From contig JADFUC010001025.1 in NCBI GenBank assembly GCA_019722365.1, forward strand, positions 310,001 to 374,000: DNA of 64,000 nt, read 5' to 3'. Source of the stretch: Lithospermum erythrorhizon. Its lineage: Eukaryota > Streptophyta > Magnoliopsida > Boraginales > Boraginaceae. The notes under the pieces were generated by a model. That model ran no database searches and had not been told where the DNA came from. It was given only the letters and a program-made list of their open reading frames with translations. This document shows, piece by piece, positions 17,758 through 55,414 of this stretch. Numbering within the stretch: the stretch's first letter is position 1; every line of letters starts with the position of its first letter. Position numbers and translations under genes: made by a program.

Positions 17758-19440
17758 TTTGCCCCGGACCGCCCATTTTCTATGGGCGGATAAATGAATA
17801 TGGGTGGGTCTCTTCAATTCCACTTAAGCGATTATAACTCCTTGAAGCATGTGTGAGACATTTTGCCTTCGAGCCAAAATGCGTTTTTCCGTTTCATAGC
17901 CTTCCAATCATTAGCAGAGACTTTTGGCGCCATAGCTTCTCTGCCGTGCCGTCGCCCGCTTTTTGAATTTGAAAAGGTTCCTATTGTCTATAAATTGGGA
18001 AGATCGCTACAAGCCTCCCTACATTTCATACTTGCGATTTCTTGCCGTCTTCTCCAGCTCTCCGGTATTCATAAATAACTTCGCTTTTCCCGTAGCGCAT
18101 TACCAATGGCCATTAGAAGGATAAAGTAGAGAGGCGAAGTCCATGAGGAGTAAGTTGGCCTCCCCTCTTGCTTACTCACTTCTCCTTCTCCTTCCGGGCT
18201 TCATTTGTGGAGTGCTTGGCGTATCGAGAGCTGCCCGAAGCAAGGCCCTTGTGACGCCTGCAGACCGGGGATAAATGGGAGGATGGGAACACGGATTTTT
18301 GGCCTCGAGCCTCAGCCACGGCCTTCATTGTGGTTACATGTATTTTCCTCACCTCCGTTTTAATGCCACTTTCTTTATCTTTTCTTTGTCGATGGTCGCA
18401 GTGGCCCGCATACTTTGTACCGTGAACCTTGGACTGGCGGCGAGCGTCTCAAAAGTAAGAAGCGTTGGGCCGGGGCTACAAGGTCTTCGCCTCAATTATT
18501 ATTTCTTTAGTTATCTCTCTTTGTGATATTCTTTTTACTTTCATATGATAGTATTCGCCTCTGAATATATGTTTTAAATGCAATTTGAAGTCTCCCATAA
18601 CTTTGGTGTCTTACGATCCATTTCGGGCCAATCTTGTTGGGCCGTCTTAAGATCGGCCGTTTATTATGGGATTATCATTTGCCCCAGAACCGCCCGTTTT
18701 ACATAAGGCGGATCGCGAATATGGGTGGTCTTGATTCCACTTAGCGAAGCAGTGCCTTAACCGCTGGCGTGTCGGGGACATTTGCCTTCCGAGAGCCGTC
18801 GTTTTTCCGTTTCATAGCCTTCCAATCCAATACTTGCAACTTTTTAGTAGCCACTTAACTTCTCTGCTTCGTCGCCCGCTTTTTGAATTTGAAAAGGTTT
18901 CACATTGATATAATTGGGAAGATCGCACCTGAAGCCTCCCTCATTTCCTTACTTGCGATTTCTTCTTGCGTGCCCTCAAGCTACTCCGGTATTCATAAAA
19001 AATAACTTCCTTTCGCGTGGCGCGTACAGCGCGCGTTAGAAGGATGTCTCCTGAGCGAAGTCGCGAGGGGAGTGAAGTTGGCCTCCCCCTCTTCTTCTCG
19101 CCTCGCTACTCCTTCCCGAGCTCGTTGTGGGTCTTACGTACCGGTACACGAGCAAGGCCCGCAGCGACGCCTACCGCCCACTCTGCAGACGAGGGATCAT
19201 GCGAGAGGATGGGGAACACGGGTTTAGCCTCGAAGCCTCAACCACGGCTTCGACTATGGTTACATGTATTTTCCTCACCTCCATTTGGTACAACTTTCTT
19301 TATTTTTCTTTATCGATAGTGCATGATGGCCATACGCCTGTACCGACAAATCTTGGACTGACGGCCCGGCCGGGGAGCGTCTGAAAGTAGAGGCATTGGA
19401 GCGGGGAGGCACAAGGTGCTTCGCCTCCCAGTCGGCGATG
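17700..19440 (-). repeat. Tandem duplication of about 0.85-0.9 kb across the LTR edge
   Basis: Two direct copies, about 17700-18510 and 18600-19440. Shared blocks include tttatgggattatcatttgcccc-type sequence, tttttccgtttcatagcct, gtcgcccgctttttgaattt, aattgggaagatcgc, gttggcctcccc, gtggttacatgtattttcct and cttggactg. The unit contains the first ~60-100 bases of the LTR, the polypurine tract and internal 3' non-coding sequence, so it is not a simple second LTR. Confidence 0.8.
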
Positions 19441-20399
19441 GCCCAGGATGTTGCTCTCTTGAATCCCCGGGGACTTAAAGGGGCCGGGAAGAGAAGGGCA
19501 GGCTGGCGGCAGAGCCGCTTTTTCCGCCCGCCCCGAGAGAGAGGAGGGCTGCAGGCGTTGCACTTTCTGAGATCTTGGCCGTGGTCTATTGTTCTATCGG
19601 ACCATCATCCTCTGACTTCCGGACCAATCGACACTACCGGCTTTGGTAGGAGTATAAGCGGCGGTACACAGTGGGAGTGGCCCAGACAATGAGCCTGTGC
19701 TTCCCAGCTTAGGAGATCACCACCCGGCTCACTGCATTTGGGTTTTTTTTTTTATATATATATATGTCTCTCTCACCACTTTGGGGGTTTATTAATATAT
19801 TTTCCACTATTCTTGCTTTTTTGCGATGTGCTCTTTTAGCACAGCAGCCGACTTGTCTCTAGTTCTATTTTATATGTTTGGTATTTACTCCTCCATATTA
19901 GCCGGAGTTCGCCTCGGACTTGCAGTCGAGGGAAGATCTCGGCCGCTTGCAGTAGGGTCCCTACCTTAAAGTTTTGTGTCCACCTTGTTAAATACACTTC
20001 GGATCCTCCCTCGTACTCTTATGCATGGGGATGAGGACTGTCCTTGATGGGGAGTGGATTGTATATGAGACATCTCTTAACCCGGAACCTCCTCTTTATC
20101 TAACTTATGAGGATTTGGTTCTCTCTCTAATTAGTCGAGGCGATAGGATATACTCAAACATTGAATGATTTACATCAATTTGCATATTTATGCACTCACA
20201 GAGTATTCGGACATAATTGATACTCTACCCACATAGAACTCTTTGAATATTCAAGGCGATTTCAACTGAATCAAATCTTTTATTCATAATAAAGCGAATA
20301 CCAACGCCCTTACGTAGTATTTCTACCGAGTGGCGTATTAATGATCCTTGACACCTAAGCGCGCGAGGACTTCCGGTTCGTATGTTGGCCTTTCTATTT

Positions 20400-20850
20400 C
20401 GAGACCCAGTATGGGCCTACGGGGACCAGATCTCCACTTGAGAATTATGCGGCGGTTTTGTTGTAGTGGCGGTTGCACGCCACTTGTATCCTGTGGTTGG
20501 GGTTGTCAGGAAGGATGCCATTACCCGTGGGAGCTCACGGTCCCAATGACCCCCACCTTTCACAGGCCCAGAGCACAACCCGACACCCTTGAAAATTACC
20601 CGTTGTTAGCTTCCACGTGGCTTGGGGATATGACAGGGCGGTCCGATGTTACGTATCCGGCTACAACACAGGTCTTTGATCTTTCCGGCCATGAGCGTGT
20701 CTCGTGTGGTGACCCGGCGCCGGGACTTGGGGATATCTTTGGCGTACCTCGGCTTGTGATCGCGTCTCGACATGATCACGGGCGTCGCTGCTACGGATGC
20801 CCCGAAATGACTATCGTTCATCCATGCATGCGACCCGCAGATCAATAATT
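20400..20850 (-). pseudogene. gypsy integrase remnant
   Basis: On the minus strand about 20410-20490 reads CNRHYNKTAA, then a stop, then FSSGDLVP. This resembles the ARYYN...F..GDLVLR block just after the catalytic core of Ty3-gypsy integrases. Upstream sequence to 20850 keeps an open frame but I cannot align the DDE residues with confidence. Confidence 0.5.
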
Positions 20851-21099
20851 CCTCCCGAATTTGACATAACTTAAATAGCGGGCTGGAAGGAGCTCCAGTG
20901 AGGACTAATCAATGAGGTATACCTCAGTACGCCTCACCGGATCTTGTTAGCCACGGGGATCTTGGGGAGGATTCGATTACCGAAATTCGTGATAGTGCAG
21001 TACCGTGGTTAGATGCAGTCATTGCCCGCCTCCGAGGGAATTATCCATCTTCCTTTATCAGAAAGTCTTAATACGCACTTACGTTCCACGGGATAGAAT

Positions 21100-21210
21100 T
21101 AAAATTGTCCCAACATTTTTCTAATTAAAGACCAATTGTGAGTGCTTACATTACCGGCTCGTTGTTCGTGGGCGTGAAGGCAAATCTCGAGACATACTCG
21201 ATTTTGTGAC
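21100..21210 (-). pseudogene. Second RNase H-like domain of Tat element
   Basis: The minus strand gives SPGHKIEYVSRFAFTPTNNE, which matches the SP-G-IEYA-RF-F-ATNNEAEYEA segment of the extra RNase H found downstream of the normal RNase H in Tat-type gypsy elements. Stops follow directly after. Confidence 0.7.
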
Positions 21211-21389
21211 CTGGGGAACCCTGATAGGATTAACTTGCCCACTGAACACTTTGGATTGCTCGCCATCTAGAGTATAAGCAATAGACCTACTGCTCGGTGA
21301 ATTGCCGGCTTGGTCGATTAACTCGGGTGTTTTCGTCGCCCGGCCCATTGGAAGTACGTTCAACCATGAAGTCGGCTGGGGCTGAGCAC

Positions 21390-21700
21390 TTATGCTCGTT
21401 TGCGGCTTGTACCGGAGAGATCAAATTCACGGATCATAGCCCGTTTGACTATCTGCCGAGGACTGCCCGGTTCTCCAATATGCGCGTGGTTGATCAGTAA
21501 CCACTCCGGATGGGCCTCAAAATATGGTTTCGGCTTCCGGCGGCTGACAATCAAGGCATACCGGTTTCTCCATCGAGGATTCACAAATACCGGCCCTCGC
21601 TCATGCTTGGGCGGCGTAATAATACACCGATGCCACACCTTTTCTCGCCGCAGGTAAGGGCCGGCATTTTGCGACTCGAGAAGCGCAAATAGAGATGTAG
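21390..21700 (-). pseudogene. gypsy RNase H fragment
   Basis: The minus strand encodes RRKPKPYFEAHPEWLLINHA, then GSPRQIVKRAM and REFDLS. This matches the KL-PYFQAHP-V-VLTDQPL and W-IELSEFD blocks that end the RT-RNase H module of plant gypsy elements. It lies downstream (in element sense) of the RT fragment, in the expected order. The frame stays open for about 100 codons. Confidence 0.75.
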
Positions 21701-21889
21701 AATTTCCACGCAACCAACCGTGCCGGTGAGGAGGCGCTTAGATGCGCCTTCCAACTCTGAAAAGACTTAGCTCTGGAGTCCATTCAAACTCTTTCCCATA
21801 GCAATATGAATCAGTCGAGGCAGTATCTTTCCGTCGGTACTTCTACTTATATGTTCGCTTGAGACTCTGCTGTGGAACTTCCACCGCGC

Positions 21890-22370
21890 GCTATCTTATC
21901 GGGGTTAGGCTCAATTCCCCGATGGCTGATCATGTAGTCAAGGAACTTACCAAAGGTTACTCCAAAGACACACTTATCTCGGTTAAGTGGGCATACGCCC
22001 ATGAGTTCTCAAGCTCTCCGATTGGCCTCATGATCTGCCGCTCGACTCTCGATGGCATGTCATCTCATAGTTTTCCATGTTTCGGCCATATGGTGGAGAA
22101 CACCTTTTTGACCATCCTTTGGTATGGCCCAGCGTTAACAAGCGAAGAGGCCATAACCGTCCGTCAATAGATTCCATACTTTCGATTCGCGAATGCGGTT
22201 TTCTCCACATCGTTTTCCCCCATGAATACACATGATAGCGGAAGGGATCGGAAAAATCCACCACTGTATCCGGCGCCAGAGTCCACCCGGCCTAGCGATG
22301 TTAGGTGAGGTACTTGATCCCAGCCGAGGTAAGCTTTGTTGATCACTGAAAGTCCGTGCCACATACACCC
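21890..22370 (-). pseudogene. gypsy reverse transcriptase fragment
   Basis: Pieces on the minus strand include DVEKTAFAN, YGLFAC, YQRMVKKVFSTIW-like sequence and, at about 21895-21985, KCVFGVTFGKF then MISHRGIEPNPDKI. The last block is the thumb/connection segment of Ty3-gypsy RT. The catalytic YVDD is degraded beyond recognition (GRNMENYEM occupies its place). Confidence 0.8.
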
Positions 22371-22699
22371 GCGTCCATTCGGTTTGGGACTATAGCGCGC
22401 GTTAGCCCGTACGTAGGAAACAGAGTTCCCAGTTGCATTTGCCCCGTTGGTTTATCCACCTCCTCCCAGGATGGCCTTTTTACTTATCTTTCAAGAAGGT
22501 CGCCTTGCAGCGATGGGCTTATAATGTGGCTCGGCGTATAGCCGATTGACACCTCAGAGTGAGGACTAGAAGATCACGTCTCACGAGGACTCGGGAATGA
22601 GCATGGCTCGTGCGTTGTCCCAGTGTAGCTCCAATCTTGAAGACCCTCGCCGGATCCTGTGAGCAGGATACTCACCGAGATCTGCTCATCTGACCGCCC

Positions 22700-24264
22700 C
22701 GCTTCTTAGGGCTTTCGTCTGGGACCTCCAAGGTGCACACATTCCGATCCCTGGAACCTTCCGATCCCCGGGATGTGGTGCCCTCCTCTACATTGTGCCT
22801 TTATCCACTTGGTAGACGGGGAACATCTCGTGCCTCGCTTAAGGCGCCTGTATCTCTCCCCGTCCCGTATGGTGTTGTTAACTTCATCTTGGTGTATAAG
22901 GGACACATTTGCCTCGAGCGTGACAGCGGGGCGCCGATAGTTCCGTTATAGGCTCAGTCATGCATTAATACACAATAGTAGACTACCATCTTCGTGGCAT
23001 GTTCTGAATCTTCCCATTGTAACCATGAGTTCGAAACCCAGGGGACTGCTACATCGCTGTGAACCCCACCAATGGAGTATAAACCCCGTGCAATCGCCCG
23101 GCTCAACTGACTTGAGAATCACAGCGTCAGCGGATGTATACCGAACTACCGGTGTGCACCCAGCATCCGTCCCGTTTAAATTCGGCCCAATGCGGGTGAT
23201 AACCCCATTAGTTTCATGAGGAACTGTCCCTTAAAATATTTTACGGAGAAGGACGTCGGGAAACTCGGGGCGTGCTCCCAGCGATTACCAAATAAATATC
23301 GTGGCATCGCCGTCGGCTCGAAATCTCCTCGCCCGCTCACTTGCCCCAAGATAATGTTGACCACTCCCGGTAATGCTAGGAGGACCGTACGGGGATCTCG
23401 ACACGTCCTATCAAGCGTTTATTCACGCTATGGGTCTCCTTGTCGACATAATCATTCAATTTTGTTCCCGGTGGATAAGCTTCTCTATCTCGATCTTCAG
23501 GTGCCGTCCCGATCGTCGATGTCATTGCCCGTGATCTTTATAGTCTTGCCCGTAATCTTTGGAGTGCCCGTGATCGTCGATGTCGTCGGTGGATGGAAAT
23601 GCTGCCTGATACACCACAGGATGAAACTCCAGCGATGTGCTCCTGGGGTCATTCTTTCCCGTTAATTTGATAAACAGGGGAGTTTCATTCCGGCCCGGCG
23701 TGATTGCGCTCCAGAATGTCGAGGAAAATTGTGCGGAACTGCGAGTTGAGTGTTGGTCCCAACGCCTCATCTGGCCCTCTTGCCGATGGGGCATCCGGCG
23801 CGGCTTGCAAGGTTGCCATTGCATCCGTGGGGGTGTTGGGGCTATACCAGCGTCGAGGGGTGGCGTTCTTTGCCCGCTGGGATCGTTTCCACCGTACGGG
23901 GAGTATGGGTATAGTCTCCCGATCCTCAGGACGGATGATAATTCCACGGGTTATCTCCCACTTTCATTGGAAGCGTGCTTCCTAGAAGTTGTTGCATTAC
24001 GATGGTTATGATGGTCCCCGTAAATACCATAATAACCACCGTCGGTGGGTTGAATTTCCACCGAACTCCTCCGGACCTCGAGTTGATTAGTTCTTGAGTG
24101 TTGGGTGGGAGCATCCTCTAGCGGTAGGTCGATCGAGGGTTGTTTAGGTTGGGTCCATCACTCCAAAGTGGACGGTTTTTCATTACTCGTTTGTTTCCGT
24201 AATGCTCCGCAAAGAAGGATTAGGCGGTGACTTTTTAATCTGAAGTCTCCCATTTTGTGGTCGC
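22700..24264 (-). pseudogene. Probable gypsy gag/protease region, unrecognisable in detail
   Basis: Lies between RT and the 5' LTR, where gag and protease belong. Open stretches on the minus strand (22706-22906, 23522-23947) are rich in proline, arginine and glutamine as in gag spacers. I cannot identify a zinc knuckle or a protease DSG motif, so the label rests on position. Confidence 0.4.
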
Positions 24265-26649: not shown

Positions 26650-27390
26650 CTTTGCTATGGACTAAATTACATAAAGTTGATTAATTATCCTCTGATGGAG
26701 CATGTGATAGTTGATTAATCATTTTTCGGCCTGAAAATATGGTTCCCGATCAAAACGGGAAGAAAATATGGTCGGAAGTGAATCCATGCCCGAAAAAATG
26801 ATTCGGGGCGAAGCAGGCGAAAATGCGTCAAATTCAGCAGGCGGAAAAATATGGTCAGGTTGGCTTGGTAGAAATATGGTCGTGGGTCGAAGCGGGCCTG
26901 AAAATATGGCTCGAGAATTCGGCGAAAATATGGTCCAGCCGAAGCAGGCGAAAATATAGTCACGTGTCGAAAGCGGGCGAAAATATAGTCGTCGAAGCAG
27001 TAGAAAATATGGTCGAGAAGTCGAATCGGGGCAAAAATATGGATTCCGAGGTGAAAGCAGTGAAAATGTCCATGGGTAAACGGACGAAATATGGTATGTG
27101 ATGCAGGGTCGAAAACGGCGAGAAAATATAGTCGAGAGTCAGCTTAGAAAATATAGTTCGGGGCTTGATCCGAAATATGTAAATCGGCGAAAAAATATGG
27201 CTCGAGTCGAAACCGGCCCGAAAATATGGTCTCGGGTCGAAAGCAGGTCGAAAATATAGTTTACAGGGTGAAAGCAGTTTGAAAATAAGTTGAGGATCGA
27301 AGCTTGAATTAGAAAATATGGTTCGGATCGAAAATATATATTTTAGGTGGCTTGGCAAAAAATATATATTTTTATTTAAAATTAATCAAA
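26650..27390 (+). repeat. Left minisatellite arm
   Basis: About 23 degenerate copies of a unit of roughly 30 bp, approximated by ggtcgaaagcgggcgaaaatatg with a variable tail. The ...aaaatat(g/a)gt core marks each copy from 26731 to about 27330. The period is a multiple of three, so open frames run through the array; these are by-products, not genes. Confidence 0.85.
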
Positions 27391-27848
27391 CATCATGTTA
27401 ATTTGAAAAAATTTGAAAAGCCTTCAACATCCGAGTTAATTTGAAATGAAGAGCTACTAAAGAAAATCTTTAATACCACAAAACTTTCTTTAACTCATCA
27501 CAAATTTATAGGAAGATAAGAGTTCTATACTTCCATACTTCCATTGCTTATGAGGAAATGAAATTGAAATGGAATCGGAGGAAAACGAAGATGTTATAGA
27601 AAATTCCTACATCCATAATCCATTTGAATTGCAAAATACTAAAGATGAAAAAGTTGCATGCATGATTGATCAAACATATGTTATCTTCTTTGAATATATT
27701 AATATGAAAAACATATTTCATTGAACTTCCATTATTTTCTGCATTACTCTCTGTCAAAAAAGTGTTGCTACTAATATACAATGAAGTACATAACAGATTT
27801 AAGAGTATCAACGCTCATTCATATGATGTTTGAAGGACTAGAATAATT
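27391..27848. other. Spacer between left arm and PP2C stop codon
   Basis: AT-rich; the part next to the stop codon at 27849-27851 is presumably PP2C 3' UTR. No other gene recognised. Confidence 0.45.
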
Positions 27849-29778
27849 CTACGTGTCGTGAAAGAAGAGGCAAATAGCTGAAATATCATCCCTGGCAATG
27901 CCAGGTCTCTTGTGTTTCCATTTGCAAGCGGCGCATTTAACTAGCCTTTTAGCAGCATCGTGCCTCTCTGGAGTTGAAGCAACTATGTCTATCGCTTCTT
28001 GGTTCGAGATCACATCCCATACCTTGAAAATAGATAGCCGAAACGATTAGAACCCAAATTGGCACAAACATAGAAATTTTAATCCAGCCTTGGATATTCT
28101 ACAGAAAGGGAAATGCAGTATAGAACTATAGATTGTAAGTAGTTGGTGCCTATGCCTACCCCATCTGTTGCCAAAATGACAAAGTGGTCTCTGTTGGTTA
28201 TTCTTCTTTGTATTACATCTGGCTCAGAGATAAGACCAAAGTCTTTTATGTAGTGATCACCAAAGGCTCTTGATACTGCTAATCCTGGACCATTGAAGCA
28301 CTCGCCTTTAGGCATCCATATTCTGTATAGCCCTTGTTCATCTCGGGAGGATAATACTCGTCCCCCGGATTGCTTTATACGCTCACACTCCACTGTGATA
28401 GAGATCAAACAAGCAAAAACTGGTTTAGTACTAGAAGTAATAAACTGGATATAAAGATGAATGCAATCATGGCCAGTGGAACAGTAGATGAGATTAAGCT
28501 GAACAAGAGAGAGGGTGCTAACGAGGTAAGTTCGGCTTGAAATCAACTGTAAGTTGAATAGGTACTAAGATACCCTCCTCATCAGAAGTGGTTGCAAGAA
28601 CAGCTCTAGAATCTCCAACATTTGCAACTATCATCATATCTCCCTGCAAAAAACACCATATAAATTGTCAGAGGCAGTCTAAGTTCTTTTTGTTGGAAAT
28701 CATGGAGGGGCTACCCCCAAATGGGGGCAATCAAGTTTCAGGAATATAGCCTGAAAATATTTATTTCAGAACCAAACCAGAGGAAATTAAATAGACTAGC
28801 AAGATCAATAGGCTTATTCACTTTTTATTGACCTTTGACAGTTGACACTAAAACTCTAATTAAACATCCCAAAATAATGACCACAATGAATCTGAAACTA
28901 TTGCCAAATCCTTTAGTGGTCCTGTACAAAAAGATCACATATTATCCCTAATCAACATGGGAGAGCCGGAGAAGGGGGTGACCGGGTGACAGGTTATCTT
29001 GGTAGAGTAGGTGACTGATTACATAATCTGCTACAAACCAAATAATTTTCTCGCATTAACACAATAATTAATTAGGCGTACTAAGCAGAACTTTCTGGAC
29101 TTTTTTGCAAGAGTTTAGGAAAGATCTCTAGTTACCTGTCTGATGACTGACAAAGCTGTAGTTCCACTATAAAAGGAATCAATATCTGGATGCTGATTCA
29201 GCTTTTCATCAATAGACAAACATGTTTTCAAGAAACATTTCTTCCATACATCTAACTGTAACAAATTTCGTTTAAACTCTAAACCGAAATCAATCTCATC
29301 ATCAAGTGAGTTTTGTACTAGTACATTCTGCCAATTCTTCAACAACGATGCAGGCATCAGTTTTCGGACTTTTCTGGAAACAAGATGTCCCCATGGACCA
29401 TGCCCATCAAATATTCCACAAAATATCATGTCTTCTTGGTATCCAAACTCCTGAAATTCATTAAGAAATAATAAATCAGCACTTTAGAAACCTTGAATTA
29501 TAAGAAGCAATCATTTCTAAGACATTTCGACGCACCTCCCATACAACAAAGCAGTCCTGATTAATACCCTTTTGTCCTCTCTTTGAATAAATTGAAGTAA
29601 AACTATCCGAGCTCTTCGCATCAACGATACATGGAGATGTCAATACCAATCCATTATTCCTTGCCTCCTTGGTTATGGAGTCCAAATCATCTGATTGCGC
29701 ATCAAGGGAGCTCTTTCTTGGACTTCTAATGGAAAGATTTCTAGCAAGGCCAGTGAAAAATGTTGATATCTGCACCAT
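27849..29778 (-). CDS. Protein phosphatase 2C, plant clade E-like
   Basis: A Mg/Mn-dependent Ser/Thr phosphatase of the PPM/PP2C family. Five exons join in frame: 29536-29778, 29136-29450, 28523-28643, 28160-28392 and 27849-28022, giving 361 aa, the usual length for single-domain plant PP2Cs of this type. Metal and catalytic motifs are intact: GINQDCF (about 71-77), GIFDGHGPWG (from 93, DGHG at 96-99), SGTTAL in exon 2, ANVGDSRAV (from 193), SRAFGD in exon 4, LATDGVWD (300-307) and ARDDISAICLFF near the C-terminus (D349-D350). ATG 29778 is the first ATG of the open frame and follows ctgcagaag, so a 5' UTR intron may end just before it. Clade E is inferred from the overall layout and C-terminal block. 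It lies between two inverted minisatellite arms, about 0.46 kb from the left one. Confidence 0.93.
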
Positions 29779-32640
29779 CTTCTTCTGCAGTTCGATAATT
29801 CCCCTCACAATCACTTGAAATGCTGTTCACTGTACCAAAGAAAATTTAGAAATGGTTTTCTCATCATAATAGAAAGAATCGAAAATGGTTTGAATTATAA
29901 GTACTATCATAATTACTGTTTGATTGATGGAATCTATAACATGTCATCTTATGATGATCAGACACAAAATAATTGATGTGAGATTATTTCTGCTCCGATT
30001 CTTATCCTGTATGAATGGTCCCTTACTTTGACAGTCCAAGTCATGAACAAGAGGCTAAGAAGACACACCATATGTGTTGAATTTGGCATTTTGAAACCAA
30101 GCAAAATTCCCAAAATGCAAAAAAGCCTTTGAACAAGTATTTTTTGTAGTTTTTCTTAAAGCCTCATACAGAATTTGCTAAATTTTCCAATTTCCAGATA
30201 TCCTGATTATAATTCTTCTATTTCTGTGATCTTCTCCTTTTTCTTTTAGGGTCCATCAGTGAAACATAACTCACATGCTCCAGGCTTTTTCCATCTACCT
30301 AGGTCCAACATATCATTTTTGCAGACATAAAACATAAAATCAAATAATATATTTTTACTTCAACCTTTATTAGATACAGGCATCGTGATAGAACTAAGGT
30401 GGGGTTGCTTGATCAAAGCTTTAACGGATTATATATGTCCTATCTCGCTCTTCGAAAAACAATCTTGCGCTCAAAATTAAACGATTAACTTGTTCATTGA
30501 CTATGAAACATAAGAATATCACATAACTTGATATTATAACATACAAAACGAGAGAACTTAAGGGGATCTAATATTTGAGAAAATGTCTAGAACTAAAATT
30601 TCTTCTCAGAAACATCTAAAATTCTAATAGAGAATATCATGGACCCTAAATCCTATATTGACTCCACATAAAACATTTTTAGCTCCCAAAGCTTGGAATT
30701 TTTATATTTTTTCCAGATCAATGAACTACAAAAAAATCTCAACTCTCCTAACTTTGAATAACCAATAAACAGACTATACATAGATAAACATTATTTTAAA
30801 ACAAGAAATATATTTCAAAACTAGCAACGAAAACTAAAAATACCACTCAAAACATCAACAAAGGGACCAATTAGAGGCAAATTAATTTAAACATCTTCAA
30901 TCACAGAACCATAATACTATTTAGATTTTTTTTTTTTGTAAATTAGTGATGAAGAGTTAATAGTATTGCAAATTACGATATTGAATATTACAAATAAATA
31001 ATTGAACCCAAAACCTTCCGTAAAAGCTTGGTCAGATGCCACCAAATTATTGAGTCTGGTTCTAAAAAATAAAAGGCTGCCCAAAAAAGTTACCAACATG
31101 ATAATTATGGTAAAAAATTATCTACTCAAATAAAAATAAAACTAAAAATTACCAAGAAAGCCAGAAATATATTTATTACCTAGTCTAATTAAAAAGGTTG
31201 GATGATATTGATGAACTATAATCACCCTTCTGCAAGCATAAGTTCCAAAACTCTTTAGCTATTATCAAATGTACCAAATTATTTGACCTCCATATTTTCT
31301 CTATTTCCTATCAAAGCCTTCTAATTATATATACACAACAATCTATAATATTTGACTGTTTCATATGAAAGATATACATATAAATATATATAATTTGGTC
31401 GACCAGTTTCTTGTTTGCATAGTTAATATACTGTGCATGTCACACTCAAAGGTTAAACAACTTATAGTTTAAGAAATATATAAAACAAGTCGTGCATTTG
31501 TGGCCAAGCATTTTAGGAACTAGATTATCACCTAATTAAATAGTAATCATAAATTAATATCATAATATGCATGGAAGTTTGATTGAGACGTATGTGGTTT
31601 TGTAGATTATTAAGTGTTTACGGTTTAATTAAATAAAGTATCCTAATGGTTGTACAAGGTTAGGCGGTAATATTCATTATGCAGTGGGTACAACTAGTTT
31701 ATATTATCACAGATTATATATCATCATGTATGTACTATTTAATTCCTAATTTAATAATCGCTCGCATCATTGCTTATATACTCTTTTGTCAATTGTTAAT
31801 CATCATTTCTTTTAATTTGGTTTATCTATCGATAATCGTCATTGTTACCGTCACTAATCAAAAAAATCATCATTAAACAACTTCATGAAGGAGACTTTGG
31901 TGTTGGACAATGACTCTTCTACCGTACCACTACAAATTCCTCTAGTCATCAAGGGTTGCCGACTTGGGGGTGGCATGGCGTCCATTAAGGAGATGAGGCG
32001 GGGAGTTGCATGATTATGTATGTGGTGATGTGCAGTGGCAGAGCTTCGAACGAACAAGGGATAATGTACCCTTAATTTTGAAAATTTTAGTTTATCATAC
32101 AATTATAAGTTATTCTACATAAAATAGAAATTGACGACTTATTTTTTGGGTGCTTACAAAAAATGTAAGCATGGTGATTACTTGGATCCTCACAATTGGA
32201 TTTCATAGTTTAAGTGGATTTTTCATGTTTACAAAATTTAGTTAGTAATAATAATATGTCCAATAATATTGAAATTCCATAGATTATCAATAATATTATT
32301 CACTAGTATTATTGAAATATCATAATTTATCAGTAATGATATATACTAGTAATAAGCACCGTGGTTATAATCTTTGTAAACAGTCAAGGTGAACTTCGCA
32401 CTTGACACCCCCTCCTCTCAATAGTGAAAAAACTCGCTAAATAAATTCTAATATTTTATGCCCTCCTTTCGGTTTTAGTTCAAGTCTGGGCCACTAAAGG
32501 AGCATGGTAATCTAGTCTGCGATGAGGCGCGAAAAATGAACGCAAAATTTGGCAGAGTGAAACAAAAATTATATTTGGAAGATGTATTTTTTAACATTGG
32601 CCCACTTTAAGGCCATTATTTTAAATACGTAGTAAACGCT
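29779..32640. other. PP2C upstream region and AT-rich spacer
   Basis: The first few hundred bases should contain the PP2C promoter and 5' UTR; I could not fix a TATA box. No coding content was recognised to 32640. At about 32036-32060 there is a gcagtggcagagcttcga segment like those seen at degraded DNA-transposon ends. AT-rich related blocks (aataatattgaaat / agtattattgaaat) occur at 32258-32330. Confidence 0.4.
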
Positions 32641-33260
32641 AAGCCTTCTCACGAATACTAAAGCTTCCACGCGAGTGCATGCAGCAAGTCCTAGTGTAAA
32701 AACTCTATGCTGGATGAATATAAAAACACAACCGAGTCAGCCTGGGGACTTCCTAGCGTAAAACTCTACGCTTTGGATGAATATAAAACATTAGTCTCTT
32801 TGGGAGGTCTTCCTCAAACCTCTATTATAATAAAGCACTATATTTGTACCCCAAAAAGTCGAGACTTTTATTTTCTTTCCGCTTTGAGCAGGTTATCTGG
32901 ATCACACCATTAACTAACGCAGTTAAGTCATCAAGGTCGAGTAAAAGGAGGACCGATCACCACCCCTTCTACTCTCTATTTGGCTGAAGAACTTCATCCC
33001 TGAATCATCAAAGCAAACAACTAAGCTTTGCAAACACAAACAAACAATTTTCTTTTAAGCGATACTTCGCCTTCATTCGCCGAACATCAAGCTAGAAGGC
33101 TTCTAAGGCAAAGTTGTCAAGTTCTAAATCCATTGTATCTCGGACCACTGCCTTCAAAAGTTCTAAGCACATATAAGGTGGTTAAATCAAGTTTACGAAA
33201 TCATACTCTCGCATGCCCTAAGCCCGATGCTTACCTTATTTAATTTTCTAGCCACAGTTC
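32640..33260 (+). mobile_element. LTR-like fragment
   Basis: The sequence tttgtaccccaaaaagtcga..., followed by pyrimidine-rich sequence and then by ggttatctggatcacaccat and aaacaaacaattttctttt, has the look of the transcribed end of a gypsy LTR. No partner LTR or pol sequence was found in the window, so it could be a solo LTR or a scrap. Confidence 0.35.
32695..32815. repeat. Tandem duplication of about 60 bp
   Basis: Two adjacent copies share gtaaaa(a)ctct, then gctggatgaatataaaa against gctttggatgaatataaaa, and end near gggacttcct / gaggtcttcct. Confidence 0.7.
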
Positions 33261-35069
33261 TCTTCGTTATTCTTCCGTGTTCAACGAATTTCCCTACAAG
33301 GTGTTCTTTTGCATAAAGTGCGGTGATGCATGATGTCTTCACTTTAATTTTACAAGAAGCATAATTGGGTAAGTGGCTGCTAAATTAGAGATAATTTGGG
33401 GTGTGTCTTCGTAAGTGTGTGCCATCATGTTCTTCATAAATAATAGACATTTTGATGTCTGCATTGTTATAATTTTATGTCCTACATATTTCACACCATT
33501 CATCTACTTCCATTCAACAATATAATTATTATAAGGGTGTATTTGTTTTTACGGAACTAGAATTGAATTCATATAGAATTTCCAATTCCATTTTTCACGT
33601 GTGACAACATGTAGAATATGAATTAGAAAATCTTATTGTGTTCCTTATTAGGTTAGGGAAGATGGTTGACTAGTGGTTTTATGTTCTTTATTAAATTTTA
33701 TTTTAAAATTGATATCAATCGCACAAAAATATTAAATCAAAAAGCTACGTGATTGGCACACACACTTAACAGACACTTGACGGAATTTTTTACGATAAAG
33801 GCAAAGAAGACGCTTATATGATCGATCGAAATATTTTGTAACACACGCGATCCACTCACGACATATGTGAGACGTTGCCGCCATTAACCCTTAATTATAA
33901 CCTATGATAATATTAGACAACAATCTCGATTAGCCCAACCAAAGGGACTTACTTAAGTGACGGGTTCCTCTCGCTGAGGTCTTCGTTCGTGAAATCATAA
34001 TTTAGAAAAGACGCCCATTTACTTAAACTACGGCACAGGGAAATGTGAGGTGGCTCAACACCTCAAGTACATTTGTTTAAAAAGTTCAAAAGCAATAGGT
34101 ACGGCGCGTAAGGCACTGTATATGTCCAAGGTGGTTTCGCTGAATCATGAAAACATGCAATACGCCGCTAAGAAGAGTCTACTATTCATTCATAAGGTCT
34201 TGGGTTCTACCCTTTGCACCACCATATATATTTTTGTATACATGCATTAGTACCTTAGCTAGTCTAAATTCATTTTTTATAGTTTATTGTGACCTAATTA
34301 CAATTTAATCACTTTTTGATGGACTAATTTAAGACAACATTTACGAGAAATTCTGAGAATTACCTCACGTCAACACCCCTTTTTAATTTTTAGCACACTA
34401 TTTTTTTTTGCTATTAATACCACACTCCCCTGGGTTCTAAATATATACAAACAGCTTCAACTATCGGATACTTAACTCGGATGCTACTTGATCAGACAAA
34501 AAATAATAAACATATGAACTACAAGAGTGTACCTTTCTTTCTTGAATAAATTGGCAAAATTTTAAAATGATAATGTAAAACGCATTCACACCAAAGAATT
34601 ATCATCAAATCCTTCCGCACGCTTTTACTAGAACGACAATGTAAAAACTTGGAACAAAATGAAAAATAAATCAATTCTTTTCAAGGGGACGGTCTGACTA
34701 TTCTTGAGGAGCGAGAGAGGTTTTGATTTTGCAAATCAAATTGTGAGTTATATGTCAGATATGAGAATACACTCTTAATATAATACATCGAGGAGAGTTT
34801 TAAGGAGATAAAAACTCTCCTTTCTCTATCCAACGACACGCCACTGTCTATCCCTATCTCGAGACTCGATTTTTCGCCTCAATGCTTCCTTCCATGTTTC
34901 AATTTTATAGACGGGAAGTTTATAATATAATACTCTCTCCATTTCAAATTAATTTGGAGGTTTGAGTTTTTAAAATATTTCAAATTAATACGGAGGCTCA
35001 ATTAATTTTATTTAAAATAATTTAAAAATACCCCTAAAAGAAAACTAAAAACATACTCTGCATCTAAGA
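33261..35069. other. Spacer, no gene seen
   Basis: AT-rich. At 34932-35030 ctctctccatttcaaattaattt and caaattaatacggagg form an imperfect inverted pair of MITE type. Near 34195-34220 ggtcttgggttctaccc resembles a tRNA B box, as in SINEs, but no A box or tail supports it. Confidence 0.35.
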
Positions 35070-35880
35070 ATGACCATCTTTTGTGAAAATATATATTTTT
35101 GGCCAATTTCACCCGAAAATATATTTTCGTCTGCTTCACTCTCTAGACCATATTTTCTAACCAAGCCGATCCTTAGACCATATTTTTGGGACGCTTCAAC
35201 CAGACTATATTTTCGTGATCAAGCTCGACCTCGGTGACCATATTTTGGCCCGCTTTCTAGCCCAAGCCATATTTTCGTTCAAGTCAATTCAAACCTATTT
35301 TCGAGCATTTCACCGGCCATATATTTTCGTGCCATTTCTAATTCCTGAGGATATTTTCGCCCGTTTCAACCCGAGGATAATTTCTCGCCCGCCGCCCGGA
35401 ATCCATTTTCGCCTTTATTCGACTTCCATTCATATTTCATGTCTGCTTTCACTCGCATTATATTTCGGCCAAGCTTTTAATTCTATACCATTTTCGACCT
35501 GCTTTCAACCCGAGACTATTTTCTACTCGGTTTCACCTCCAGTCATATTTTCGCCTGCTTTCACCCTTTGGTGACCATATTTTTCGAACGCTTCGACCCG
35601 AACCATATTTCGCCAAGCCACCCTCGACCATATATTTTCTCGGCCGATACGGGATGACATTTACCTGCCGCCCGAAAATATTTCGCCCGATTCAATTCTC
35701 GACCATATTTTCCTCGCCCGCTTTGACCGACTATTTTCGCTAGCCAACACAGGCTTGAGTATTTTTCGCCCATTCACCTAGCACTCATATTTTCGGCCCA
35801 TTGCTTCGATCATCGATCACTTGCCACATCACTTTTTTTCATCAAATGGTTATAAATCTTTAAGGTCTAATTGCCATTTC
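35070..35880 (-). repeat. Right minisatellite arm (inverted)
   Basis: About two dozen copies of the reverse complement of the left-arm unit, recognisable by accatattttcg followed by cccgctttcgaccc-like sequence, from about 35095 to 35800. The outer flank to 35880 (ttgccacatcac...ggtctaattgccatttc) partly matches the left outer flank after reverse complementing. Confidence 0.85.
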
Positions 35881-36092
35881 AATCATTTTGAAATTTAATA
35901 GCAAATCCATGAGGATTTTATTTCATGCTTGATTACTTTCCATATCCGAAATTCTTTAATTTTATCAATTAATTTGAATCTTGAATAATTAACATAATTT
36001 TCTCACTCTATTTATTATTATTACAATTTTTATTATTAAGAAGTTTCGCAAACCTTCCCACCAATATGTCCTCCGTGAGTTCCCTAACTCAC

Positions 36093-42700: not shown

Positions 42701-45131
42701 TGTAAAACCCGGTAGCGACTTCGTTAATAAATAAATTAAAATGTGAAATTTTTAAATTGATTCATTAAATTGGAAACCACTTAATATTTATGCGTTAATG
42801 TTAATGTTGGAAGTTAGTTGTGAGATAAATTAAAGCGAGAAGTATCGTCGAATTAAAGGTTGGTTCAGGTTGGGCTTTTGGGCCCAACCCAATTACTAAC
42901 CCGTCATATAACTGAAACCCCAAACCCATTAATTTAGCACCACCTTGAGACCAAGTGAGGAAATGCTGCCGCTGAAGTTGATTCTTAACCTCCCATTTTC
43001 TCCTCCATCTGCCGAGCTTTGGACTTCAAATTTTCGGAGAGCACTCATCGTCTAAATCGTTTCAAAGGTAAAAAAGGTGCGTATTTTTTGATTGTTTTGT
43101 GAAATCTCCAAACTTTGACTTTTGTTGACTTTTTTGATATTTTTGAATTTATTGCTCAATTGATTCTTGGGTTGTAGATTAATTTATTCTTGGATTGAAA
43201 TATGTTGTTTGATGTAAAATTTTGGAGTGTTTAGAGGCCGATTGACTTTTGAATTTTTGGATTGACTTTTTGGATTTTGGATAAATTATTGAATAAGTGT
43301 GCACAGAGCCTAAATTGTAATATAGGGATTGATAATGATCGATATTTGGGGTAAGAAGAATCTTTGTTATAGTGAATTGACTTTGAATTGTCGTGAGTGT
43401 TTCGCTAAAATGTGGTGGTTAATGTAAATAAGTTAGTGGATCATTATTGTGATTGTTTTGGGATACAAATATGAATTATAAGTGTTGGGAACAAATAGGT
43501 TGGAATTAATCGTAGTGGATTTTGGGTAGTAAACGAACTTAGGGATTAGGGGTTGAGAGTTATGGTTAAATTGATTGGGAAAAGGTTGAAATTGGAATTA
43601 TTAGGTATTTGGAAATGTTGGGGGTTAGCGGAATAAGATATAGGGCGGTGCTCGAATTTAGTCCGGGTAATTGAGGTTTATGCATCGAGGTTGTTATTGA
43701 AAGCATGGCGGTAATCTTCGTGGGTTGTAATTTATAACGATGAAAAAAAGGTTAAAAAATTAAGTATTTAGAATTGGATAAAAGGATTGGCGTAGTTACG
43801 GAGTTGTGATTTTTATTTTGTAATGTGTGCATTCGGACTCGGGACGTGGGCAGTGAGGATCGATTATTTGGCAGGCGTGAGTGGTCTTGCTTGAGGTGGA
43901 GATTTATCGCTTTTTATCTTGTTATGTTTGGGTGTTGTGTATGATAAGTTAATTTGTTAAGCTGATGTATGCAATGTTGTGAACTGTCGGTGTGTATTGT
44001 TATGAGATTATTGAATTGTTGAACTTGTGTGGTAATTAGCGTTAGATGCGTGTTGGTGTGTTTATTGGAGAATTGTTATGTAAGGTACATTTATGTTTTA
44101 AGCGTAATATTTGAGTATGTTTATCTTTGAGAGTATTCTGTATTAAGTATTGGTATAATTGTATTGTGGAAGTAATAAAGGGGTGTATCTACGTTGAGTG
44201 CGGGTTTTGTGCGATTTGGTTCTATTGTGTGTATAGATGTTACTTTGAAGCGTTGTGTGTTTGTTGTATGTGTTTGACATTGTCACGTGTGATTTGTGGA
44301 TGTTGAGATGATGTAGGGGTGTTAGAGGGTGAGTGTAGGAAAGGATATGATGATGTTGGGTGTTCCGGAGATTGAACTGCCGGGAAGGATATGTTGTTGT
44401 TGGGGTTCGGAAGGGTGGGCACACTTAATGGATGAATTATTATATATGATATTTGTGGTTTCACTTTTGTAAATCATTGTTGTGGTTGTGGTATTCGCGT
44501 GTTGGGTGAAATTTTCTTGGTTCTTGTTTGATTATGTGATGTGATATATATGGCTGTGAGTACGTAAAGTAAAGTTACAAGTGGCGCATTTATTTACGAT
44601 GAGTATTACCTTTATGATGTGTCTTGAATAGTTAGCATGTTTATTGCTATGTTTATAATTGTATTTACCCGTCTTATTGCTAAGTACCGTGTATATATTT
44701 ATCCCGCCTACGTATCTATCGTTCGGATATGGCAAAGTTACCATCGGGTGATCCGTTTCCACTTAATTTGTCGAGCACCCGCCTCCCTTGATTGGCCGTG
44801 CAAAATTTAGGATCCTCGGCGGTCACTCTCTTTTCATTTTGGGTGTAAGCGGTTATTTATTTTTTGTTTTGATATTGAAATTGTAAGATGCTTTGAGTAC
44901 GTTTTGTGACTTGGTTGTTGTGGTGTTTTATGTTTTTGGGTTTGGTAGTAATGCGCGATGGTTAAATTTTGTATCGATGTTTTCGGTTCGAACTATGCTT
45001 TTTTATCAATGTCGAGGTTCTCTTTGGTTTTAGGCGGGCTTTTCGTGTCAACCGTCGATTGGTGACTGCGATATACGAGGTTCATGGCGACTCGACCTCG
45101 GGCGTGCGACTCGATGCGGATTCGTTACGAT
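42701..45131 (+). repeat. 5' LTR of the chromovirus
   Basis: Long stretches are identical to the 3' LTR, for example around 43440-43560 and 50640-50780. Contains ttgggcttttgggcccaa palindromic sequence near the start and ends directly before the primer-binding site. Confidence 0.85.
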
Positions 45132-45133
45132 TA

Positions 45134-45145
45134 TGGTATCAGTAG
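45134..45145 (+). other. Primer-binding site (initiator Met tRNA)
   Basis: TGGTATCAGTAG matches the TGGTATCAGAGC primer site, complementary to the 3' end of plant initiator methionine tRNA, in 10 of 12 positions and lies 2-3 bases after the LTR end. Confidence 0.85.
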
Positions 45146-46005
45146 TTTGATTTAAGCGAGTTACGTGGTGTGTTTTACGTATAAAGTTTTGTAAAAATTT
45201 TGTGTCATTGAGTCTTTTATGAGTCTAAATTGTTTTATTACTGCTTTAGTAGGTATCGAGGATGCCGCTGAGTTGAGTTCTTGAGATCAAATCGCGGACC
45301 CGTTAGGGGTAAATTATACAGAGTAGGGCTGGTGTGGGTAGAGGTGATCTGGGAAGGGCCGGGGTAGACCCGAGGAGGTAGAGTCTTTGAGAGCAGGCTC
45401 GTGGAGCTAGAGGAAGGGGCGTGGTGAGGGCCGGCGTGGACCCGACGGGTCCCGGGAGGAATGCATTCCGGAGGTGAGTATGAGGATTTTGGAGAGGCGG
45501 TTGGGTGGCGCGGGCCCGGTACCCGACCAGTGATGGCGCTCCGGCGGTGGTCGGACGGTGCTAAACGGGTTTCTGAAGAGGATTTTGAGTTTCGTAGTGC
45601 CTTGACGCGGAGGTTGCGTCGAATTCTTGGAGGCATTAAGAGAATAAGTTTGAACCCGATAGGTTTAGGGGATTAGTGAAAGTGAAGTTTGCGGTGTACA
45701 GGTTATTAAAGGCGAATTTGGGAGTTGGTGGAACCATGACCACCAGATTTGGTGGCTAGGGGTGATACCGATCCTTGGGCTAAGATTTGGGGAACTTTTA
45801 GGCCCGAAATTTTAGTTTTGGAGACTCATATGTATCTGCGATATGGAGAGAGTTAGTTCAGTCTGACGGGGAAACGATTGATAGGTATGAGAGGGATTCG
45901 ACTTGTGCGGCTTGATTAGAACCTGAGATTTGCGAGGCTTTGAAATTTGAGACTCGGATCCGGGAGAGATTGTCCTTTTTCCCTTGCAGTTTTCGCAGTT
46001 GAGGA

Positions 46006-46506
46006 ATGCGGCGTTGCAGGTGGAGAGAGGACATAAGCGGGAAGTCCGGAGGTGAAAAGAGAGGGAGGTCGTGTGGGCCTGAGCCATGCAGCCCAGGGGA
46101 CTTGAGGAGGAACTTTTCGGCACCGCCGAGGCGAGAATCATTTAATTGCACCGTACATTCGGCCAGACTTTCAGGGGCTTTCTCAGCGCCTCGCTTACCT
46201 CCTAGAGTGAGTGGGTTTCACGGTGGTATTTCGGGTGTTCCGGCCGATGTACATGTTCAGTGTTATCAGTGTGGGCAGAATGGGCACAGGGCGAAGGATT
46301 GTCAGCACCAGAGGGCGGTGTGTTTTCGATGTCGTGGCCCAAGGCATTTTGCTAATCATGTCCTTGTATGTGGAGTCTGGTCGGCGGCCATACATTTCGA
46401 CACGATTTGGGAGAGGTGGATGCAGGCGTCGAGGTGGGCGGTTTGGAGGACGGCCCAGTCGAGGTCGAGATTTGGTGGTAGATCGCCCAGGTGTAGCGGT
46501 ACTTGA
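46006..46506 (+). pseudogene. Chromovirus gag C-terminus with zinc knuckle
   Basis: An open frame of 166 codons contains CYQCGQNGHRAKDC (46261-46302), a perfect CX2CX4HX4C nucleic-acid-binding knuckle, followed by CFRCRGPRHF, a degenerate second knuckle. Gag packages the element RNA. The gag start region (from about 45250) and the following protease (expected near 46500-46650) are too frameshifted to read. It is part of an inactive copy. Confidence 0.8.
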
Positions 46507-47039
46507 TACGAGTGGAGTTGCTTGCGAGGCGGGAGGGCAAATTAATGCGATCAGCGCGGCGGGAGGCACGGGATATTAGGATGGTGGCAGGTACACATCT
46601 TTCTTGATGCTTGATGCTCGCGTATTTGATTAGGAGCCCATAGCGCTCTTTTATATCTACGAATTTTGCTAAAAGGCTATCTTTGAGTTCTACGAACATC
46701 GAGTACCATGATTATAATGGCAGCGGTGGGGAGGCGGTTGAGATAATGGAAGTTTATAGTAATTGTCCACTTAAGTGTTGATGTCGTGTATTAGAGGTAG
46801 ACACATTACCCTTTGAGTTGGTGGATTCGATTTGATTTTGGGAATGGGTAGTTGGGAAAATACCATGTATAATAAATTGTCACCGTCGAGGAAATTGTGT
46901 TTACTAGCCAGAACAGGCTGAGTTAGAGTTGTGGGGGATAGGAGATTTCTATCGTCTTGTGTGATCTCGGTGTTAGAAGCTCGTAAATTCTTGAACAAAG
47001 GGATGTATCGAATTATTTGGGATACGTAACGGACTTGAA

Positions 47040-47830
47040 GAAAGAGGAGCCTAAGCTTGAAAATGCGGATTGTGAGAGGAATTCGGGGATGTATTTCGAA
47101 GGATTTGCAGGACTACCTCCGACAGAGATTGAATTTTTACCGATTGAAATTAGTGCAGGGGGGCGGCTCCGATATCTATGGCACTTCGTCTGAGTGGCTC
47201 AGCGAGTTGAAGGAGTTGAACAGGTGCGGGAGTTCTTTGGAGAAAGGGTTTATCGAGGCCAAATTATTCTCCTTGGGGTTCTCTCCCGGTATTGTTCGTC
47301 AAGAAGAAAATGGAGCGTTGAGGCTTTTTATTGATTCACCGGCGGAGTTGAACAAGTGACTATCAAGAACCCGGTACGTTGGGGTCGATGATCTTTTTGA
47401 CCAATTAAGGGATGCGGTGTTTTCAAAGTGATTTGAGGTGCGGATATCACCGGGTTGAAATTAAGGAGGATGATATATCAAAATCGTTCGTCTGAATATA
47501 GACATACATGAGTTCTTGGTGATGTCGTTTGGGTTGTGAATGCCTTTACTTGACTTTCATGGACTGATGAATCGTGTTTTCGAGAGTTCTTGGATAGGAT
47601 TAAATTGGTGGTATTTATTGATGATATCTAATCTATTCTAAGAGTGAGTTGGAGCATGAAGATGTCGTTGAGAAAGTATTGGAATCTTACGGGTAAATCA
47701 GTTGTACGCAAAGTTTTCAAAGTGTGAATTTTGGTTGGGAAGGTGCAATTCTTGGGTCATGTTATCTCGGGCGAAGGTGTTAGTGTGGACCACCCAAGGT
47801 GGAAGCGGTGATGAATTGGGAGAGGCACTT
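47040..47830 (+). pseudogene. Chromovirus reverse transcriptase fragment
   Basis: Across several frames the plus strand gives DLQDYLRQRLNF-shifted DLPGLPPTEIEF, LEKGFI, NYSPWGSPVL, KKNGALRL, ELNKVTIKNP, DDLFDQLRDAVF and the catalytic FIDD at 47614-47625, followed by a stop, then SKSELEHEDVVEKVLE and FSKCEFWLG...FLGHVIS. This is the normal motif order of Ty3-gypsy RT. At least four frame changes separate the pieces. Confidence 0.88.
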
Positions 47831-48239
47831 GAGTGTGAGGCGGGGTAGAAGTTTCTTGGGTTTATTTGGGTATTCTGGAAGGTTAAATACAGACTTTAGT
47901 TGATCATTTCTTCTAGATGACTAAGTTGACGAGGAAAGTGTACCGTTGTTTTAGGCGAGTGTGATGCTGTTTCAATGGTGAAGAGGAGATTATTTCTGGC
48001 CTTGATGTTGGCAATGCCGTCGGGGAATGAGGGTATGTGGTGTACGTCGATCTTGTATCGAGGGGTTAGGTTGCGTATTGATGCGAGCAGGGTCATATGC
48101 ATCTAGAGCAATTGAAGAACCATGAAGAATTATCCTACCCGTGACTTGGAGTTGGTAGAGATTGTTTTAAACTTTGAAAATTTGGAACACTTACTTGTAT
48201 AGGGGTTAAATGCAGATATTCTGAGACCACTTGGAGTTT

Positions 48240-48513
48240 GAAGTATACTCGCCGCTTGAGAGGAGTTGAATTTGAGGCGAGCGAAGATGGGCCGAGTTTA
48301 CGAGTGACTTCTGATATGACGATTGAATATCATCCGGGGAAAGCAAATGTAGTGGCGGATGCCTTGAGCCGAAAAGGGAAGTTGAAGGAGCCAAAGAGGG
48401 AGTTGAAACAGATTGGGGTAGACTTTGAGGTTGGAGGTGATGGGTCTTTGTTGGCTTATATGAAGGTGAGACCAGTGTTGCTAGATAAAATAGGGGGAGA
48501 TCTGAGAAGATGA
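48240..48513 (+). pseudogene. Chromovirus RNase H end
   Basis: The frame reads MTIEYHPGKANVVADALSRK at about 48319-48378, the conserved C-terminal block of gypsy RNase H (D-Y-HPGK-N-VADALSR). It then continues as a linker toward integrase and stops at 48513. Confidence 0.85.
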
Positions 48514-48659
48514 GAAAGTCACGAGGCCTAGTTGGGAAGCCCGAGCGAGGGAGGCCATCGGAGTTCACGGTGGGTGATGATGGTGATACTGATTGGGGAG
48601 GCGAGTGGTTGTGCCCAACCGCCCGACCCTAAAAAGGGAGATCTTGGATGAGGCTACAT

Positions 48660-49250
48660 GATACCTCATATAGTATACATCAGGGGAGTACAAAAATGTA
48701 TCGAGGGTAAGGGAGAACTATTGGTGGCCGGATGAGAAAGAAATTGCGGAACTTTGTAGCGAAGTGTTTGATTTGTCAGCAGTCGAGATTGACCATAAGC
48801 CTTCAGCGGGGAATTCTTTTGACCGTTACGATACACAATTAGACGTGGAGAAATCGCATGGACTTTGTGTTGGGCTTTGAACTTCGGAAAAGAAATGATG
48901 GGATTTGGGTAATTGTGGATGGTATCTAAGACCGCTTTCATTTCTACCTATTAAAAACAGCTGATGGGCGGAAAAGTTGGCGAAGATGTATGTAGACCAA
49001 GTGGTGGCGAAATTGCGTAGGGTGCGGAGTATTGTTTGATTAGGGGCCTTGAGTTCAACGAGGTTTGGGGAGGATTCCGGGGCGTTAGGGGCGAAGGTCA
49101 ATTGAAATGCTGCGTTTCGTCCTCAGCGGACGGGTTATCAAAGAGAGACGATTGAGCGTTGGAGGACATCTTTGAGAGCTTGTGTGTTGAGTTTTACTCG
49201 GTAGTTGGGACGAGGTTGCGAAAATGGGTTAAACATAATAGCAGTTTGTA
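48660..49250 (+). pseudogene. Chromovirus integrase fragment
   Basis: Contains SIHQGSTKMYRGLRENYWWP followed by CLICQQSRLT, i.e. the H...H/CX2C zinc-binding N-terminus of integrase. MDFVLGF (about 48859-48879), LAKMYVDQVVAKL (about 48977-49015) and RACVLSFTR (about 49177-49203) follow, from the catalytic core. Frames change repeatedly and stops are present. Confidence 0.85.
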
Positions 49251-49445
49251 GTTCGAGGCTTTGTATGGCCGAGGTTAACAGGACTTCGATATCTTTGGAA
49301 TGAGGTAGGGAGAGAAAGATTTATGGAGTGCGAGTTGGTGGAAGTTCGATAGAGAGGGTAAAGGTGTCTGGTGACATTTGAGGGCCAATAGCGGGGATAG
49401 ACAAAGAATGCAGTGATGTTGTAGTGACTTGTCTATTCGAGGTAG

Positions 49446-49850
49446 GTGGTGGGTATTCTGAACTCTCCATGGAAGGGTGTGATGAGGTTCGGAGAAGAGG
49501 AAGTTGAGTCCCGTTACGTTGGGCCGTTTGAAATCTTGACAAAGGTGGGGGCGGTGGAAACACCGTTTAGCCTGCACAGAGAGTGGAGAGGATTCATGAT
49601 GTGTTCCATGTGTCTTGTGAGGAAATGCGTGCGGATAGTCAGCAGCGTCTTGGAGTTTCAGCCGGATGACTTGGGGGTAGATTTGACCTATGAGGAGGGA
49701 CCGGTGAGGATCTTGGATCAGAAAGAGAAGGTGCTGAGGAACAAGGAAGTGAAATTGGTAAAAGTTTTGTGGAGGAATCATCGAGTAGAGGAAGCCACGT
49801 GGGAGCGCGAGGAGGATATGAGAAACCGTTACCCGCAGCTTTTCGTCTGA
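49446..49850 (+). pseudogene. Integrase tail with chromodomain-like module
   Basis: A 134-codon open frame with SPWKGVMRFG, SRYVGPFEIL, VLEFQPDDLGVDLTYEE, PVRILDQKEKVLRNKEV and VKVLWRNHRVEEATWERE ending at PQLFV. The last part is the divergent chromodomain that targets chromovirus integration to particular chromatin. This is the best-preserved coding stretch of the element and it ends at its natural stop, about 90 bp before the 3' LTR. Confidence 0.88.
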
Positions 49851-49926
49851 GGTTAGTGATCTTGGTTGTTTTGATTCATACCTTTTGTAGCTTTGAGTTG
49901 AGAATTTCGAGGACGAAATTTTTGTT

Positions 49927-49938
49927 AGGTGGGTAGAA
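49927..49938 (+). other. Polypurine tract
   Basis: aggtgggtagaa abuts the TG of the 3' LTR, the position of the plus-strand primer. It is less pure than usual, with two T residues. Confidence 0.7.

Positions 49939-55381: not shown

Positions 55382-55414
<33 letters not shown>

Follow-up and report, generated by a model that had tools for sequence, protein, structure and literature searches.

In a 64,000-nucleotide stretch of the Lithospermum erythrorhizon genome (the window; contig JADFUC010001025.1, C1772:310001-374000), two arrays of a 29-bp minisatellite unit stand in opposite orientation on either side of an intact PP2C gene. We conclude that, very probably, a non-autonomous Stowaway-type miniature inverted-repeat transposable element (MITE) family, F1, inserted here at two separate sites and that the arrays are one half of each copy, with the PP2C gene between them. 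Each array is taken to be the surviving half of a separate MITE because its units are directed toward the gene and its inner edge is a conserved tip of the kind we term type B. The unit recurs elsewhere in the genome between other ends, and we further hypothesize, holding the chances to be about even, that this fold-back minisatellite is a transferable middle module that was copied between Stowaway-type and Tourist-type MITEs within one plant lineage and was spread by two transposase systems, the window pair being two decayed products of the Stowaway branch.

The left array occupies approximately 26727-27345 on the forward strand and would be the surviving arm of an F1 element whose left half is missing; the right array, at approximately 35090-35800 on the reverse strand, would be the arm of a second F1 element without its right half, and the two copies lie 7.5 kb apart. 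Inverted local alignment of the left with the right array gives a score of 133; the best of 200 dinucleotide shuffles reaches 37. The inner edges of the pair align with a score of 63 (shuffle maximum 28; 0 of 200 shuffles as high), and the outer flanks with a score of 22, a chance-level value equalled by 19 of the 200 shuffles. From these scores, we regard the array and inner-edge matches as real and the outer-flank match as not. A preliminary description of the window, made from its letters alone, was therefore right about two inverted arrays of one short unit and about their matching inner edges, but not about matching outer flanks. Its estimate of a unit of about 30 bp with some two dozen copies per array agrees with the most frequent unit length (29 bp) and with unit numbers judged by length (about 21 in the left array and 24 in the right), but the strict unit core, allowing at most one mismatch, is found only 14 and 9 times, respectively. 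None of 83 genome matches holds a counterpart of the left outer flank, for which the loci fetched from the L. erythrorhizon assembly, designated by L-numbers, gave only a 21-base match (E 0.04). Adjoining the right array, at 35815-36017, is a separate dispersed repeat that is 79% identical to L026:6749-6952 and that adjoins an F1 array at both sites. As an element end it was ruled out, because its L026 counterpart falls outside the element of that region.

The type-B end of the left element lies at 27340-27454 on the reverse strand, with its tip at 27454 and a TA at 27455-27456, and that of the right element at 34931-35045 on the forward strand, with a TA at 34931-34932 and the tip CTCTCTCC starting at 34933. 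The left tip is eroded, and a genome search recovers relatives of this end that are 80-86% identical over query positions 778-852. Each window copy thus has a TA at the one tip that it retains, its second tip being missing, and no full type-A end, the other end type of F1, was found within the 64-kb window. F1 copies in which two ends could be identified pair one A with one B; the window has two ends of type B. When 14 type-B ends are compared, the window pair are 69% identical to each other, while their best relatives reach 72% (left) and 84% (right); in order of similarity to the right copy, the left one comes 11th of 13, and in order of similarity to the left copy, the right one comes 6th of 13. 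The two are therefore no special pair.

The PP2C gene within the spacer runs on the reverse strand at 27849-29778 in five exons (29536-29778, 29136-29450, 28523-28643, 28160-28392 and 27849-28022) with GT/AG introns, and encodes 361 amino acids, as intact as the preliminary description had it. Its product is 99% identical to a protein bearing the name Lithospermum erythrorhizon. The tip of the left element is about 0.4 kb past its stop codon, and, with the conserved tips at the inner edges, both elements stop short of the gene.

We searched the genome (366,103,689 bases in 2391 contigs) with a 24-base unit pattern at up to 3 mismatches. It matched 155 times in forward and 141 times in reverse orientation, and a reversed control 2 and 1 times, respectively. 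Array places were listed for 100 of the 296 matches; we read 20 regions of 9.9 kb at the best places and 18 shorter ones, the latter picked partly for visible units on both strands or for an end, and excluded L013, which overlaps L012, from the counts. The result is 41 array clusters, 39 genomic and 2 in the window. Units of both orientations are present in 31 of the 41, and in all 31 the order is minus then plus, so that the units point outward, the exceptions being a single leading stray plus unit in L011 and another in L023. In some of these clusters the minority orientation amounts to only one or two units, and L037 has a lone minus unit outside its A end. Most copies have both arms inside a single compact element, and the gap from the last minus core to the first plus core measures 3-380 bp in 32 copies. 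Opposed arms are widely spaced in L027 (2.1 kb) and L012 (4.5 kb), again minus then plus, with no reading frame longer than 82 and 120 amino acids in the respective gaps. The L012 gap (L012:4700-9200) holds a 370-bp direct-repeat pair, 82% identical, that is probably a long terminal repeat (LTR) element inserted there; the far side may not be part of the same element, its only F2-like end standing 2.1 kb past the array at 72% identity. Ten clusters, 8 of them genomic, have a single orientation; one of these eight comes from a region cut at the array and two are the far arms of L012 and L027. Nine of the 10 have an end, and in 9 of 9, the window pair included, the units point toward it. The window units read inward over PP2C, the reverse of the 31 two-orientation clusters.

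Three pairs of end sequences recur next to the arrays: F1, with its types A and B, F2 and F3. An end stands on the expected side of the array in 37 of the 41 clusters and on the wrong side in none. The end seeds were taken from loci that account for 11 clusters; without these, the fairer comparison, the figures are 26/30 and 0/30. Both ends could be identified in 14 clusters (8 at non-seed loci), and they belong to the same family in 14 of 14. Between the families, the end seeds have only AT-rich matches of at most 29 bases in common. Stowaway terminal inverted repeats have a CTCCCTCC-like consensus, and F1 tips are of this form; a TA stands on both sides in 4 of the 5 F1 copies with both tips matched. 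The tips of Tourist/PIF-Harbinger elements are G-rich, of the GGGNNTGTTTGG kind, as are the GGGTGCGTTTGTTT-like tips of F2 and the GGGCCTGTTTGGAT-like tips of F3, both of which adjoin TTA or TAA. On visual inspection, L032 (F2) and L027 (F3) have a clean 3-bp duplication; in L022, L024 and L045 the two sides are equal only if one tip base is assumed lost, and in L009 and L023 they are unequal, the remaining F2 and F3 copies being eroded or one-ended. Judged by tips and target duplications, F1 would be Stowaway-type (Tc1/mariner-like), and F2 and F3 Tourist/PIF-Harbinger-like. At L015:5330-5619 an F3 end and its flank are tandemly duplicated, the copies 97% alike over 58 end bases.

F1 ends also occur without arrays. 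A query with the type-A end has array units nearby at 17 of the 40 places listed. Six places without listed units were read: L047, L052 and L049 (two units) do have units and are counted within the 17, and F1 ends without an array were found in L048 (both ends), L050 (A and a partial B) and L051 (A only). Of the remaining 20 places, 3 have a type-B match close by. For the F3 end query, 19 of 40 places listed are within 1.2 kb of a known unit. Among the best-hit ends, none of F1 falls between an array and its F2 or F3 end, where insertion of one MITE into another would have placed it.

The unit itself is common to the three families. The F1 consensus is AAAATATGGTCCCGGGTCGAAACGGGCCG, that of F2 is identical except for T at one polymorphic position, and that of F3 is AAAATATGGTCTCGGGTCGAAACGGGGTG; an identical 29-base unit occurs in an F3 copy (L014) and in F1 copies (L026, L020). 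Since the fold-back middle of F1 also fills F2 and F3, it would act as a module flanked by transposon ends of unrelated kinds. For 58% of 350 units, the closest unit at a different locus belongs to the same family, against 34% with shuffled locus labels (0 of 2000 shuffles as high), which suggests that the families have one repeat in common but have in part diverged separately. F3 right arms carry a diverged 29-bp unit, TTTGTCGAAAATGAAGTTTCGGGTCGAAA (L024:5400-5930; also L014, L015, L036, L042 and L045), and several F3 copies have a recurrent centre where this unit meets the ordinary one; the centre is variable in F1 and F2 copies. We find no support for an intact core with one fixed centre that moved between families, the centre being recurrent only in those several F3 copies.

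The account that we propose is built on the arrays, their ends and polarity, the three classes of ends and the array-less copies with F1 ends. A complete F1 element would consist of one end (A or B), an outward array, a centre, the opposite outward array and the other end. What remains of each window copy would be the type-B end and one arm, the type-A half having been lost, perhaps by deletion at the unstable hairpin, and PP2C would lie in ordinary sequence between two B tips. The repeat may have passed from family to family by template switching or gap repair at a hairpin, in our view the likeliest route, after which each chimera would have transposed with its own ends, with mariner-like transposases mobilising F1, and PIF/Harbinger-like ones F2 and F3.

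The preliminary description had instead proposed one large fold-back element with tandem-repeat arms and a captured PP2C gene as cargo. The arrays are indeed inverted around an intact gene, but the conserved tips are at their inner and not their outer edges, the outer flanks match at shuffle level, both window ends are type B, and the plus-then-minus order of the window is met in 0 of the 31 two-orientation clusters; even the long-gap pairs of L012 and L027 are minus then plus, with no frame above 120 amino acids. We consider such an element scarcely credible, and on polarity, end type and chance-level outer flanks we rejected an FB-type element spanning PP2C, whose arms, unlike those expected of an FB-like element, do not end outward in conserved tips; nor did any element boundary come to light just outside 26650 and 35880. 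By the description's own account this reading would fall if other genomic copies occurred mostly singly with their own conserved ends, as they do in the copies read; its alternative, a gene between two insertions, is the one that the evidence favours. Its broader idea, that inverted tandem-repeat arms mark a fold-back-like family of plant transposons, holds: such arms, minus then plus, lie between ends elsewhere in the genome. A further possibility, that a single F1 element was torn apart and its pieces rearranged around PP2C to give the window arrays, is very improbable; both are F1 and only 7.5 kb apart, but such an element would not show two B ends and no A end, nor would its halves rank only 11th and 6th of 13 for each other.

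It is possible, if doubtful, that the three MITE families separately captured one host minisatellite, with no exchange between them. The units do cluster partly by family (58%, compared with 34% for shuffled labels), a derived right-arm unit and a recurrent centre are peculiar to F3, and uptake of host sequence by MITEs has been proposed for coral CMITEs (PMC2872659). Against this, the same outward arm order would have to arise repeatedly in all three families, and no long free-standing array appears among the 100 of 296 places listed, in an assembly that may be collapsed. Misassembly or nanopore error could also create half elements or join arrays to foreign ends. The 2020 red gromwell assembly, from which the window comes, rests on about 20-fold R9 nanopore data assembled with DBG2OLC and polished with Pilon (PMC7261806), a later paper argues for a true genome size near 709 Mb (PMC8435551), and unit spacings below 29 are frequent, most of all in F1; the array sequence needs caution, since there may be nanopore errors within it. 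We nevertheless think artefact an improbable source of the pattern, for random joins would mix families and sides, and the end families agree in 14 of 14 clusters with 0 ends on the wrong side; the target duplications in L027 and L032 are clean.

Several observations count against the two-insertion reading of the window and the module hypothesis. Neither window copy shows a type-A half, which makes the loss of these halves an inference. The five-sequence type-B profile included both window ends, as did the end seeds, and the profile scores and E-values of these two ends are therefore overstated; their independent support is their sequence match to other loci. Not every F1 tip adjoins TA, which was found at 12 of 16 matched tips in 11 copies. 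By the cluster rule no end was found in 4 clusters (two in L012, and those of L033 and L039), although the best-hit listing does place an end in L039 and one at the first array of L012. The family frequencies are biased, because the unit was what located the loci and because visible pairs or ends partly guided the choice of 18 of the 38 regions. Finally, the unit trees are incompletely mixed, as the excess of same-family nearest units shows.

In Drosophila FB elements, tandem repeats lie inside long inverted terminal parts. Typical Stowaway MITEs measure a few hundred bases and, unlike F1, are without minisatellite arms. F1 resembles the Stowaway MITEs (named in PMC4486113) in its CTCCCTCC-like tips, in the TA at most tips and in that no coding capacity was seen. 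Fold-back elements as such have precedents in plants, FARE and other fold-back Mutator-like elements (MULEs) with long palindromic ends (PMC4486113); these are Mutator-like, and, to judge by tips and duplications, the F1, F2 and F3 ends are of another kind. Inverted repeat arms are likewise already known in a plant PIF/Harbinger element, MtPH-A6-4 of Medicago truncatula (PMC2213677), which is like the present system in having a few members without repeats and residual ends beside the repeats at every occurrence. As described, however, MtPH-A6-4 is one family of one superfamily with the repeat confined to it, whereas here a 29-bp unit is found with three end-families, one of them Stowaway-like. 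The Acropora coral CMITEs have an internal region common to families with different terminal repeats (PMC2872659), but as described they are about 100 bp long, with TTAA duplications throughout, piggyBac-like tips and no tandem-repeat arms, and two superfamilies are implied here. Drosophila Tetris and Galileo also have tandem repeats within long inverted terminal parts (PMC4079207); Tetris has a family-specific outermost domain and 220-bp repeats, unlike here, Galileo is a P-superfamily element, and the tips and duplications of both differ from those of F1, F2 and F3. Tandem repeats arising from MITEs have been reviewed (PMC9659126).

We found no minisatellite common to MITEs of two superfamilies in the literature searched, which left most subscription papers uncovered. 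The window finding itself comes down to two decayed MITE halves on either side of a gene, and relative to that literature the new part would be one minisatellite across the ends of two superfamilies. If true, this is a plant case in which the middle of a transposon and not its ends is the common part, crossing superfamilies with different transposases, and a route by which short minisatellites reach many sites. It also cautions against assuming that inverted repeat arms on either side of a gene belong to a single element.

Elsewhere in the window, 2.4-kb direct repeats at 42701-45093 and 49939-52365, 78% identical, enclose frames that match a zinc knuckle and, just below the cut-off, a chromodomain; 42701-52365 is probably a decayed gypsy-type LTR retrotransposon. 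The region 19327-24011 contains several open frames of 110-170 codons and is unlike the surrounding AT-rich DNA; two of its frames were scanned without a match to a Pfam family, and neither this region nor the rest of the window has an Rfam match. Our guess is that it is organelle-derived. A run of 30 G at 55384-55413 is perhaps a sequencing artefact, and about seven tandem copies of a unit of about 97 bp occupy 57103-57776.
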